Part shown: one piece after another, positions 2,205 through 6,700 of the stretch
How positions within the stretch are numbered: the stretch's first letter is position 1
How the letters are laid out: each line of letters starts with the position of its first letter
Assembly: GCA_900542565.1 (NCBI GenBank)
Contig: UQOC01000050.1
Span: forward strand, 1-17,239
Direction: 5' to 3'
From: an uncultured Eubacteriales bacterium
GTDB lineage: Bacteria > Bacillota > Clostridia > Peptostreptococcales > Anaerovoracaceae
DNA: 17,239 nucleotides
Program-made: the position numbers and the translations under genes
The notes under the pieces: model-generated
What the model was told of the DNA's origin: nothing
What the model saw: the letters and a program-made list of their open reading frames with translations, nothing else
Database searches by the model: none

Positions 2205-3287
2205 TCAGTTTTCAAGGATAAAATCCATATATACCGGGTTATGATCGGAGCATACGAACTGCAGATCGACTACATCAGAACTCACCAGCCGTACATTATC
2301 TGAGATTATGAACCCGTCTATGGTAAGCTGGAAATTTGTTTCCGGATCCCACGGCTTATCTGCGTTGCGGCAGCTTGGGACAGGGTTTTCCTCATCAAAA
2401 GGAGCGACGACCGTGAAACCTTCCGGAACCGAATCATACGGGAAAGGCTGGGCCCAGCTGTAATCTTCTCCTGATACTCCAAAAACTTCTGAAGAATCAT
2501 CCAGCAGATCTTTATTAAAATCTCCTCCGCATATTACATAATTCCCGGCTTCGTATTCGGCAGTCATATCCTCATACATCATGGCAAGCTGTGCTTCGGC
2601 CACGGTGGGATCTGTGGTGTAGGCTGAAAGATGGAAATTTATCAGCACCAGTTCTTTTCCGTCAGCGGCAGGAAGCCGGCTGATACTGTAGCATCTGTCC
2701 AGGTCAAAGAACTTGGCCAGTCCGCTCTGGATAGGAAGGCTGCGCCTAACAGATGAGGTGACTGGATAGTCTGACATGGTGGCTATGCCTGCCTGGGATT
2801 TGCCGTGAGGTTCAAGTATAGGATAGAACAGATAGGACGAATCGTAGTTCTGGGCAAAGATTTTGTATTTTTCGTCAAATCTTGAGGCTATCATTCCATA
2901 TTCGTTAAGGTGATAGCTCCTGGTGGCGTCTGTATCCACTTCCTGAAGAAAATAAAAATCGGAGTCAAAGGAAACAAGGTCATCAGATATCTGTTTCACT
3001 GTTTTTTCAACGATCTCTTTGGAAAATCCCCTTGAATATTCTCCGCCGTCCATGAAAAATGAATATTGGTCAGTATAGGCACCGAAGCCTATGTTCCATG
3101 ATGTTATGCTGAGAGTTTCTCCTGTTGGGACTGCCCCGGCCTGAACGCCGGAAGCCGGCACGGTCACTTCAAGGGGCAGGTTGTCCTCTTCTCTGTGATA
3201 GTCGATTAACAGGTAGGCCACATATGCCAGGACGATCAGTAAGAGAACGCCTATGATGATCCCTGATATTTTTAAAGCCTTTTTCAT
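2205..3287 (-). CDS. Membrane-anchored endonuclease/exonuclease/phosphatase-fold protein
   Basis: This 360-residue protein carries one N-terminal hydrophobic anchor (about residues 8-29), a short linker, then an endonuclease/exonuclease/phosphatase (EEP, DNase I-like) domain facing outside. Family residues are visible in order: Asn65 (SWNIGFG), Glu116 (LQEVD), His219 (NFHLSAY), Asp256 and Asn258 (GGDFNKD), Asp324 (TIDGF), and Asp348-His349 (CSDHNP). The full catalytic set is present, so a metal-dependent phosphodiesterase or phosphatase is expected. The substrate (nucleic acid, phospholipid or inositol phosphate) cannot be told from the sequence. The start at 3287 is chosen because AAGGAG lies 10 nt upstream and the anchor begins at once. 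A longer in-frame start at 3383 would run through the promoter. It is transcribed alone, convergent with the LtaS-like gene. Confidence 0.85.
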   Translation of the reverse strand: MKKALKISGIIIGVLLLIVLAYVAYLLIDYHREEDNLPLEVTVPASGVQAGAVPTGETLSITSWNIGFGAYTDQYSFFMDGGEYSRGFSKEIVEKTVKQISDDLVSFDSDFYFLQEVDTDATRSYHLNEYGMIASRFDEKYKIFAQNYDSSYLFYPILEPHGKSQAGIATMSDYPVTSSVRRSLPIQSGLAKFFDLDRCYSISRLPAADGKELVLINFHLSAYTTDPTVAEAQLAMMYEDMTAEYEAGNYVICGGDFNKDLLDDSSEVFGVSGEDYSWAQPFPYDSVPEGFTVVAPFDEENPVPSCRNADKPWDPETNFQLTIDGFIISDNVRLVSSDVVDLQFVCSDHNPVYMDFILEN

Positions 3288-3318
3288 GTCGATATTTCTC
3301 CTTGGTGCTTTTGGAAAA

Positions 3319-3347
3319 ACTTTAACATAAGAGTATGTTTTTTTCAA
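3319..3347 (-). promoter_or_regulatory. Promoter of the EEP-fold gene
   Basis: On the minus strand TTGAAA (3347-3342) and TAAAGT (3324-3319) are separated by 17 nt. The -10 is preceded by TGT, giving an extended -10 (TGnTAAAGT). Transcription would start near 3312, giving a leader of about 25 nt with the AAGGAG binding site. Confidence 0.6.
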
Positions 3348-3365
3348 CTTTATCGACAGGGCTGA

Positions 3366-3408
3366 TATAATAACCGCCGTCAAATCTGCGGAAAACTGCT
3401 GGTATGAT
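3366..3408 (+). promoter_or_regulatory. Candidate promoter(s) of the structured RNA
   Basis: Two -10-like sites precede the structured RNA on the plus strand. TATAAT at 3366-3371 is a perfect hexamer but has no clear -35. TATGAT at 3403-3408 carries an extended TGG immediately upstream, with only a weak -35 (GTCAAA, 3379-3384). They predict transcript starts near 3378 or 3416. The second fits better with a transcript whose 5' end lies just outside the closing helix. Confidence 0.4.
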
Positions 3409-3415
3409 ACTGCCC

Positions 3416-3632
3416 GCCAGAGACCAGAGATAAGTTCTCTTTTTAGCTGTGACCGCCCAGCACAAGAACCGAAAGCCCGTAAAAGGTTCTCTTAATGCGC
3501 ACAGGTACACATAGCAAGAACCGCAAGGTTCTTGGTCGCTGCGTAAAACGGAAATAAGAGGATCGGAAAGCATATATAACAGGCATTTAGGTTCTCAGGA
3601 ACATCATCCGCAGCGGAAAGGAGAACTTTTTT
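3416..3632 (+). ncRNA. Unassigned structured RNA, about 200 nt, rod-shaped with closing helix and T6 terminator
   Basis: No credible protein fits here, but the plus strand folds well. P1: 3432-3450 pairs with 3610-3628 (19 positions, three G-U, one mismatch, plus G3451-C3609), directly followed by T6 (3627-3632). P2: GGTTCTCTTA (3485-3494) with TAAGAGGATC (3555-3564), 10 bp. P3: TGCGCA (3496-3501) with TGCGTA (3540-3545). P4: CAAGAACC (3515-3522), GCAA loop, GGTTCTTG (3527-3534). An extra helix, AGAACC (3465-3470) with GGTTCT (3590-3595), would complete one long rod. Size, single-rod shape and terminal closing helix are like 6S RNA, but I cannot match conserved 6S bases by eye. Alternatives are an attenuating leader of dnaE, whose start codon is 142 nt beyond the T-run, or an undescribed RNA. 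The 5' end is approximate. I saw no T-box, tmRNA, RNase P or SRP hallmark. Confidence 0.6.
3590..3632 (+). terminator. Intrinsic terminator or attenuator before dnaE
   Basis: GTTCTC (3591-3596) can pair with GAGAAC (3621-3626), enclosing a small CCG-CAG-CGG hairpin, and T6 follows at 3627-3632. The same GAGAAC arm is also the 3' strand of the long-range closing helix P1, so local and long-range partners compete. Either pairing places a stable stem directly before the T-run. Confidence 0.55.
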
Positions 3633-3774
3633 ATGGCGAAGGGGCTGAACACATCTGCCGGTCAACTTTGCGGCCATAGTCAGCTCATTAAACTATGCGG
3701 TAAATGCCATAATCTTAAATCGCCCTTTAAATACCCATCTGTCTGTGCTAAAATGGAACAAAAGGAGGCAGACT
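3633..3774 (+). other. Leader of dnaE, no gene seen
   Basis: This 142-nt stretch lies between the T6 terminator and the dnaE start. I see no strong promoter: CATAAT (3708-3713) and TAAAAT (3749-3754) lack good -35 partners. The strong ribosome binding site AAAGGAGG (3761-3768) is 6 nt before ATG 3775. An ATG at 3633 opens a reading frame that runs into dnaE out of frame and looks spurious. How dnaE is transcribed (readthrough of the upstream terminator or a weak local promoter) is therefore open. Confidence 0.4.
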
Positions 3775-6700
3775 ATGGCATTTACCCATTTACATGTTCA
3801 TACCGAATACAGTTTGCTGGACGGAGCGGCCAGGATACCCGATCTGGTGGCCCACGCCAAAGAGCTGGGCATGGAAAGCCTTGCCATAACCGACCACGGG
3901 GCAATGTTCGGAGTCATAGATTTCTATAAGGAATGCAAAAAAGCCGGTATCAAACCGATCATTGGCTGCGAGGTATATACCGCCGCCAGAAAGATGACCG
4001 ACAAAGACCCCAACAAGGACAAGCATCAGGGACATCTGGTGCTGCTGGCCAAGGACAACGACGGATACAGGAACCTCATAAAGATCGTTTCTGCCGGTTA
4101 CATAACGGGATACTATTATAAGCCCCGTATAGATAAAGATGTGCTCAGAGAGCATAGCGAGGGGATAATAGCCCTTTCCGCCTGCCTGGCAGGAAATGTC
4201 CAGCATAAGCTCCTGATGGGAGATTATGAGGGAGCCAAGGCAGAGGCCGCCGAGCTTCTGGAGATTTTCGGCAAGGGCAATTTCTACATAGAAATGCAGG
4301 ACCAGGGCCTTGAAGAAGAGGCCAGGATCAACCCTCAGCTTTTGGAGATAAGCCGCCAGCTGGATATACCCGTTGTGGCCACCAACGATGTCCACTATGT
4401 GAGAAAGTCCGACGCCGTCACCCACGATGTGCTGCTGGCCATCCAGACGGCTACCAGCATCAATGACGAAAACAGGATGCGCTTCCCCAACGACGAGTTC
4501 TATCTCAAGAGCGAAGCCGAGATGAGAAAGATCTTTGCCGCAGTGCCGGAAGCTGTCGACAACACTCAGATGGTGGCTGACGCCTGCAATGTGGAGTTTG
4601 AGTTTGGCAAATATCATCTGCCTGAGTTCAAGGCGCCGGAAGGCTTCACCAACAGAGAATATCTCAGGCACCTCTGCGACGAGGGTCTCAAAGTCCGCTA
4701 CGGCGACGAGCCTTCGCAGGAGCTGCGGGACAGGCTGGAATACGAACTGGGCGTCATCGAGTCCATGGGCTATGTGGAATATTTTCTGATAGTGTGGGAC
4801 TTTATCAATTTCGCCAGAGAAAACGGCATAGCCGTTGGGCCGGGCAGAGGCTCTGCGGACGGTTCTCTCGTAGCCTACTGCCTGCACATAACAGATGTGG
4901 ACCCGATAAAATACAACCTCATATTTGAGCGGTTCCTCAATCCGGAGAGGGTCAGCATGCCCGATATAGATGTGGATTTCTGCTACGAAAGACGGCAGGA
5001 AGTCATCGACTATGTTACGGAAAAATACGGCAAAGACCGGGTATGCCAGATCATAACCTTCGGTACCATGAAAGCCCGACAGGCTGTCCGTGATGTGGGC
5101 AGGGCTCTTGATGTCAGCTATGCCGAAACCGATGTGATAGCCAAGGCCATACCCATGGGCAAGGGTATGAACATCAAGGCTGCACTCAAGACCAATCCGG
5201 AGCTGCAGCAGATGTACGACGAAAATCCCAAAGCCAGGCAGGTGCTTGATACGGCCATGGCCCTTGAGGGCATGCCGCGCCATGCGTCAACCCATGCGGC
5301 AGGAGTGGTGATCTCCAAAGACCCGCTGGACGAATATGTACCCCTTTACCTTTCAGATAAGGGACCGGCGACCCAGTTCACCATGACCACCATCGAAGAG
5401 CTGGGGCTGCTGAAGATGGACTTTCTGGGGCTGAGGAACCTGACAGTCATCAGGGACGCTCTGGAAATGATAGAGCAGGATCACGGTGTAAAGATAGATT
5501 TTTCCAAGATGGACTACGATGATCCGGCCGTATACGAGATGATCTCACAGGGCAACACCCAGGGAGTTTTCCAGCTGGAAAGCCAGGGCATGACCCAGTT
5601 TATGAAATCTCTCAAGCCAAACTGCTTTGAGGACATAGTTGCGGGAGTGTCCCTCTACAGACCGGGACCTATGGATTCCATCCCCAAATATATCGAAAAC
5701 AAGAAAAATCCGGAAAAGGTAAGATACCTCCATCCGGCCCTCGAACCGATACTCAGCGTGACTTACGGCTGCCTGGTATATCAGGAGCAGGTAATGCAGA
5801 TCGTAAGGGATCTGGGCGGCTACAGCTACGGCCGTTCCGACCTGGTGCGCCGGGCCATGTCCAAGAAAAAGATGGATGTCATGCTGGAAGAAAAAGAATA
5901 TTTCATCCACGGCAAGACCGACAAGGACGGCAATGTGGAGATAGCAGGCTGCATACGCAACGGCATACCTGAGCCGGTAGCCGAGGAAATATTCAACGAT
6001 ATGGTCAGCTTTGCCGAATACGCTTTCAACAAGAGCCACGCCGCCGCATATGCGGTGCTGGCCTACGAGACGGGATACCTCAAATGCCACTATCCGGTGG
6101 AATTTATGGCAGCCCTGATGACCAGCGTAATGGGAGATGCGGGGCAGATTTCCAAATATATCAGGAACTGTGCTGAGATGGGCATAGAGGTACTGCCTCC
6201 CTGCGTAAATAAAAGTAAAAAAAAGTTCAGCGTTGACAACGGCAAGATACGCTTCGGCCTGCTGGGAGTCAAAAATGTAGGCGAAAACGCCATCGACGCA
6301 ATGATCAAGGCCAGAGAGGAAAAAGGCGAGCCGAAGGACATCTTCACATTTATCCAGCAGCTGGACATAAGCCAGGTAAACAAGAAAGCCCTGGAAAGCC
6401 TCATCAAATCAGGCGCCTGCAGATGTCTTTCCGAAAACAAGGCCGCCCTGATGAGCGTTTATGAAGGTGCCCTTGAATCAGCCCAGAACAGCAGTAAAAA
6501 GAATCTGGCCGGCCAGATGTCCCTTTTCGACCTGAGCGGACAGATGGGAGATGAGGATCTGGGAGTGGGTACCATGGAAGGCGCCATGCCGGATGTGGCC
6601 GATTTCCCTGAGGATATTTCTCTTGCCATGGAAAAGGAAATGCTGGGCGTGTATATAACCGGACATCCCCTCAGGAACTACGCAGATAAGATCAAAGCCA

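Follow-up and report, generated by a model that had tools for sequence, protein, structure and literature searches.

A candidate small-RNA gene and a predicted start-hiding hairpin upstream of dnaE in an uncultured Eubacteriales bacterium

Upstream of dnaE in an uncultured Eubacteriales bacterium lies an unannotated stretch of about 200 nt, for which an earlier note on the 17,239-nt window (the whole stretch of DNA analysed) had proposed a structured RNA, either a divergent 6S RNA or a new class. The question is whether this stretch is an RNA gene, of what kind, and how it relates to the dnaE start downstream. We tentatively read positions 3428-3634 as a lineage-restricted small-RNA gene on the plus strand, contained in extra sequence between dnaE and its divergent neighbour, with a probability of roughly 0.45, just short of even odds.

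Fold, ends and coding potential of the region

The region folds beyond chance. On the plus strand, 3428-3634 has an MFE of -64.6 kcal/mol (z -5.07) and the overlapping 3416-3632 one of -64.3 kcal/mol (z -3.83), and in neither case was any of 200 shuffles as good, which bears out the claim of a structured RNA before dnaE and answers the comparison with shuffled sequence that the earlier note had called for. The minus strand reached z -1.88 for 3416-3632 (9/200 shuffles as good) and still z -3.70 for 3428-3634 (30 shuffles), so that the difference between the strands is only moderate. When the two strands were scanned as 216 stretches of 207 nt in 160-nt steps, with 3428 placed by hand and 30 shuffles for each stretch, 3428 on the plus strand ranked first (z -6.5), narrowly ahead of 2081 and 14401 on the minus strand (z -6.2 each), which both sit between convergent genes and are probably terminators. 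The z of -5.07 with 0/200 shuffles, the rank of 1/216 and the stronger plus strand favour a small-RNA gene, and the good folding of the minus strand counts against it. The features of the region, all on the plus strand, are as follows.

3363..3371, plus strand: candidate extended -10 site TGATATAAT, TSS about 3378
3400..3408, plus strand: candidate extended -10 site TGGTATGAT, TSS about 3415
3428..3634, plus strand: candidate structured RNA of about 207 nt, z -5.07, top of 216 stretches
3432..3444, plus strand: closing helix, 5' arm, 13 pairs with 3616-3628, mean probability 0.96
3465..3490, plus strand: 6-bp AGAACC/GGTTCT hairpin of the branched fold, 0.70 against about 0.28 for the rod
3515..3534, plus strand: 8-bp hairpin with a GCAA loop (3515-3522/3527-3534), mean probability 0.97
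3616..3628, plus strand: closing helix, 3' arm, overlapping the T6 run 3627-3632

The architecture described in the earlier note could be retained in part. Its closing helix of 19-20 positions has 13 continuous pairs, but the inner six positions (3446-3451/3609-3614, past one mismatch) have a pair probability of about 0.23-0.30 and mostly pair elsewhere, in competition with 3537-3542/3610-3615 (probability 0.70). The T6 run at which the helix was said to end exactly is present, but the last two pairs overlap its first two T. The nested helices of 10, 6 and 8 bp, the last with the GCAA loop, all exist, although the first two, 3485-3494/3555-3564 (10 pairs) and 3465-3470/3590-3595 (6 pairs), belong to the rod and have a probability of only about 0.28. 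Instead of one long rod, which accounts for about 28% of the ensemble, the favoured MFE fold is branched (about 70%). It consists of the 8-bp GCAA hairpin, the 6-bp AGAACC/GGTTCT hairpin (in the rod, the 5' arm of the latter has 3590-3595 as its partner) and, inside 3537-3542/3610-3615, a stem of 7 bp.

One place on the plus strand of the window has a helix of 12 or more pairs (no more than two G-U) with arms 100-260 apart at a run of five or more T. Such a helix arose in 4/100 whole-window shuffles, and a long-range helix of 13 pairs arose in 0/300 shuffles of the region, the criteria having been set post hoc in both cases. This long closing helix at T6 also favours a small-RNA gene. Inside the RNA, the blocks 3434-3441/3486-3493 and 3463-3475/3515-3527 are repeated, both at a 52-nt offset, and are possibly the remains of an old tandem duplication.

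The earlier note had placed candidate -10 sites before the RNA, and two perfect extended -10 sites lie just upstream. The site at 3363 is the window's sole TGNTATAAT, both strands included; TGNTATNAT is found in the 17 kb four times on the plus strand and five times on the minus strand, and the sites at 3400 and 3363, which start 28 and 65 nt before 3428, are two of the four on the plus strand. Neither has a good -35. A two-hexamer promoter scan reported nothing on the plus strand before the RNA, and a search of 3200-3850 for a local terminator hairpin gave none; the candidate 3' end is the T6 run with its long-range closing stem, and a terminator with arms about 170 nt apart would be unusual. 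These results of the scans and the far-apart arms weigh against a small-RNA gene, while the two nearby -10 sites weigh in its favour. For such a gene we infer the promoter, end point, transcription and action as follows: one or other of the extended -10 sites would start transcription (TSS about 3378 or 3415), the T6 run 3627-3632 or its vicinity would end it, the product of about 220-260 nt would be closed and multi-branched, and this RNA would most likely act in trans, or as a stable decoy, via its GGTTCT/AGAACC hairpins.

The view that no convincing protein covers the RNA also stood, with no family over its cut-off and no named relatives. In a Pfam scan of the small ORFs over the region, no family passed its cut-off: the 83-aa minus-strand ORF had one match below it (DUF6943, E 0.034, 14.7 bits against 27), and the other three had no match. 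The relatives of the 83-aa ORF and of a 61-aa ORF are only unnamed ORFs of the same length, and at most one of the two is likely to be real because they overlap in different frames; ORFs that stay open in the close variants of the region may be coding. The absence of a convincing protein is a further point for a small-RNA gene.

The ORF 3633-3929 begins at ATG 3633 and runs across the dnaE start in another frame. The sequence AAAGGAG, which makes a good SD, lies 9 nt before this ATG, inside the 3' arm of the closing helix, and could make the region a cis-acting leader, in which the closing helix buries the SD and the RNA tunes the ORF and dnaE in a long transcript. A downstream hairpin that would hide the SD and start of dnaE in read-through transcripts only (see below) would suit such a leader. 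Against it, no homologue of the ORF turned up at E<=0.001, the ORF has no Pfam match and a frame other than that of dnaE, dnaE has its own promoter-like site downstream, and no riboswitch was matched in Rfam, all of which makes a leader distinctly improbable.

Setting and distribution of the region

Ten proteins of the window were scanned, including a sulfatase-type protein, an exo/endonuclease/phosphatase (exo), DnaE, a phosphofructokinase, a flavodoxin and a Y-family polymerase. The exo gene is located on the minus strand, divergent from dnaE, and the gap between them is about 470 nt. The nearest dnaE relatives found (L001, L002, L003, L006, L007, and L009) come from genomes of six members of one genus and have DnaE proteins with 76-82% identity to that of the window; the window would appear to belong to the same genus, and the six are called congeners in this sense. 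The exo-dnaE pair is retained in L001, L002, L004, L006, L007, and L009. In L001, L002, L007, and L009, the gap measures 34-259 nt between ORFs, and the promoter-like sequences of both genes seem, by eye, to be conserved on either side of it, so that, relative to the syntenic congeners, the middle of the gap with the RNA region is extra. In L006, the place of the RNA is taken by a different insert; it carries a plus-strand ORF of 423 codons (1481-2752 of that locus), which by eye resembles a repeat protein, proline-rich in one stretch and with a membrane segment at the C-terminus. In L003 (L152 in a second set of loci), a plus-strand ORF lies immediately 5' of dnaE.

Extra sequence of this kind, with a different insert at the same place in L006, might also be a small mobile or palindromic MITE-like element, the folding of which would be a by-product of terminal inverted repeats at 3424-3449/3611-3636. 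These 26-nt repeats are 77% complementary, the GGTTCT/AGAACC arms are iterated, and a 12-nt direct repeat (83%) occurs at 3354-3365 and 3637-3648, the second copy adjoining the right arm. As a target-site duplication, however, the direct repeat is poor, being imperfect and having its first copy 59 nt before the left arm. The window contains no second copy of the element (best match 12 bases), 296 genomes of the family gave no convincing one, and plasmids and phages gave none. We regard a mobile element as unlikely on balance, and return to the small-RNA gene as the preferred reading.

Searches for homologues of the region gave no convincing result. BLAST of the gap against ten related genomes produced matches at E<=1 in nine of them (best 0.027), and 12/296 family genomes had matches at E<=0.01, the best of which (5.5e-4 over 34 bases) lies at the dnaE promoter/SD end; all matches in relatives are short and were taken as chance. 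No match was found in plasmids and phages. A single-sequence model of the RNA (R1), which finds the window itself at 265 bits, had no match at E<=10 in the six congeners, matched 6/296 family genomes at E<=1 (best 0.015), and matched 1/393 order genomes at E<=0.05, this being the same weak match as the family best. That match (G182; 19.3 bits over 53 positions) has no neighbouring similarity and was rejected. With filters off, R1 gave 82 matches at E<=10 in seven loci, which were ignored; the best (18.9 bits) is a 36-base stem in L006 that skips the middle of the model. The family and order samples, each taken from a larger group, have genomes in common, and these null results are no proof of absence because a one-sequence model is limited in reach and the large searches here were more strictly filtered. 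A pattern of the GCAA hairpin and its flank with up to three mismatches occurred in 0/296 genomes.

Other candidates were likewise set aside. A 20-base near-palindrome is all that one viral contig has in common with the region, and neither dnaE nor exo has a relative in viral contigs. Local alignment of the gap with the gaps of relatives gave a best p of 0.013 (L009) in seven tests and was not accepted. At E<=10, Rfam matched Alpha_RBS (19.2 bits, where the gathering score is 38), snoZ17 and mir-3927; all three matches are on the minus strand, far below their gathering scores, and were taken as chance. The suggestion of a new class thus lacks a convincing homologue beyond close variants, and the absence of one in the six congeners, 296 family genomes and 393 order genomes counts against a small-RNA gene. 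In Firmicutes, narrowly distributed intergenic RNA motifs have been judged on alignments of homologues (PMC6429828). The window RNA is similar to those motifs in being intergenic, structured and narrowly distributed, but it is represented by three translated variants here instead of alignments of homologues there. If it is transcribed, it would be an orphan small RNA in an apparently uncultured clostridial genus that is known here mostly from metagenome-assembled genomes.

The close variants come from two minus-strand ORFs over the region, which match P0001 and P0002 (92% identity) and P0003 (97%; 13 member sequences), showing that the RNA region exists in close relatives; its retention in all three is a point for a small-RNA gene. 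The variants are visible as translated ORFs only, and nucleotide changes were read back as the smallest codon changes, with silent changes unseen. Read in this way, the TG of the 3363 site seems to be altered in P0001 (3364 G>C), and the three minus-strand residues over the 3400 site are the same in P0001 and P0002. Nine sites within the RNA were inferred to differ among the variants. In the branched fold, five of the nine are unpaired and four paired; the change at 3462 keeps its pair as G-U, that at 3599 breaks a weak 3-bp stem, and 3468 A>T in P0002, again as the smallest codon change, breaks one pair of the 6-bp hairpin and goes uncompensated, since the unchanged residue E29 bars a compensating change at 3487. 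P0002 also has 3437 C>G within the closing helix, the partner of which (3623) is out of view. In the rod, the paired sites are again 4/9 (3437, 3468, 3476, and 3555), and 3555, which differs in P0001, P0002, and P0003, costs the 10-bp helix its end pair. Of all positions, 52-60% are paired when the fold is branched and 39-41% when it is the rod, so that the changes show no bias and no sign of constraint, at very little power. As read back from protein, the close variants appear neither to support nor to exclude constraint on the helices.

The missing sign of constraint, together with the broken pair of the 6-bp hairpin, speaks against a small-RNA gene and might instead indicate intergenic sequence that drifts without function, its good folding being due to chance or to local duplications. 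The block repeats noted above, each shifted by 52 nt, hint at such a local duplication, and no conservation was seen beyond the close variants. The z of -5.07 (0/200 shuffles; rank 1/216) and the rarity in shuffles of a long helix at T6 count against incidental folding, which, like a mobile element, we consider unlikely but a serious alternative.

Relation to 6S RNA

6S RNA is a rod with a closing stem and a large central bubble, which binds the RNA polymerase holoenzyme and templates product RNAs. The window RNA is similar to 6S RNA (SsrS, RF00013) in its length of about 200 nt, its long closing stem and its minor rod-like fold (about 28% of the ensemble), but differs from it in having no model match and a branched main fold, and in that 6S is found at another locus in 5/6 congeners. 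The 6S/SsrS scan that the earlier note had recommended gave no RF00013 match at the gathering score, nor at E<=10 on 3300-3800. In five of the six congeners, RF00013 matched over its cut-off with 59-75 bits (none in G007), and these five 6S genes sit in a common gene neighbourhood and lie on contigs other than those of dnaE. A model built from the five sequences (R2) was run on the window at E<=10 without filters, and none among the 50 matches listed fell in 3300-3770. The window RNA is, therefore, not the known 6S of the genus. The proposal of a divergent 6S, for instance a second paralogue, retains the length, the closing stem and the alternative rod in its favour; with neither the Rfam model nor that of the congeners matching, a branched fold, and canonical 6S elsewhere in a shared neighbourhood in 5/6 congeners, it is scarcely credible.

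Hairpin over the dnaE start

Downstream of the RNA, the start of dnaE itself is predicted to fold into a hairpin with the following parts.

3699..3715, plus strand: 5' arm of the start-hiding hairpin, a 17-nt inverted repeat, 94% complementary to 3770-3786
3722..3728, plus strand: arm pairing with the dnaE SD region (3762-3769) in the MFE fold
3726..3754, plus strand: promoter-like site of dnaE's own, from the two-hexamer scan, mostly in the hairpin loop
3770..3786, plus strand: 3' arm including the dnaE start codon (ATG 3775), from the inverted repeat and the fold

The fold of 3690-3800 has a z of -3.79 (shuffles as good, 0/200), the start codon is paired with a probability of 1.0, and the SD is partly paired with 3722-3728. 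TGTGNTAAAAT also precedes dnaE, by eye, in L001, L002, L006, L007, and L009. Transcripts from the dnaE promoter would be without the 5' arm, so the hairpin could form in read-through transcripts only, and a start-hiding hairpin would make sense if plus-strand transcripts arrive from upstream, which is one more point for a small-RNA gene.

Complementarity between the start and its upstream sequence was surveyed in the window plus 80 dnaE loci, of which 71 were usable and nine lacked the motif or enough upstream sequence, and it equals the background overall (mean z -0.05). Five of the 72 loci have p<=0.05, namely the window, L006, L029, L007, and L076, the first two of which stand out as the strongest by z. 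A second set of 30 loci plus the window, which again includes the window and the six congeners, allowed 29 to be used (L170 has no motif and L173 a short upstream sequence) and gave 5/29 at p<=0.05, in the same order. L007, L160, and L163 have p values of 0.02-0.04; L007 and L160 were not counted as start-hiding hairpins, since by eye the arm falls in the start of the divergent gene, and L163 was likewise not counted. Among the other congeners, p was 0.02 in L007 (arm in the exo start), 0.12-0.15 in L002 and L009, 0.91 in L001, and 0.46 in L003, which has another upstream gene; such a hairpin is not clearly present in L001, L002, L007, and L009. Single-strand folds pair the start codon of L004, L007, and L008 as well, and the cases of L004 and L008 were rejected because their folds are no better than shuffles.

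The arm of L006 is GAAAGCCATA against TATGGCTTTT, and that of the window AAATGCCATA against TATGGCATTT, the two hairpins differing by one swapped pair, from U-A to A-U. Besides the window, L006 is the congener that has a plus-strand unit separating exo from dnaE. On a selective reading, it is possible that the predicted hairpin shields dnaE from read-through, as an insulator. On a neutral one, a local template switch may have copied each start into its own arm, and two cases do not tell these readings apart. A comparable arrangement has been described for T4 gene e: the start region of lysozyme is hidden in long transcripts initiated upstream and is freed in short transcripts, the promoter of which sits inside the structure (PMC3014915). 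By sequence and predicted fold, the dnaE hairpin resembles the gene e hairpin in the pairing of SD and start codon and in a promoter within the structure; it differs in concerning a bacterial housekeeping gene, in having one clear congener with a similar hairpin, and in being known here from sequence.

Taken together with the preferred small-RNA gene, it may be imagined, as a doubtful extension, that the lineage gained such a gene before dnaE, that the hairpin with the promoter in its loop lets only short, properly started dnaE mRNA be translated, and that the same insulator arose or stayed in L006 beside an inserted plus-strand protein gene. If true, the dnaE hairpin would represent a simple translational insulator, through which genomes can take in new transcription units next to essential genes.

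Finally, residue 362 of the window DnaE (4858-4860) is Asp (GAC) in the motif GPGRGSAAGS. In 71 related loci with GPGRGSAxGS, the same position is Ala in 70 and Pro in one, and the Asp could be either a real change or a sequencing error.
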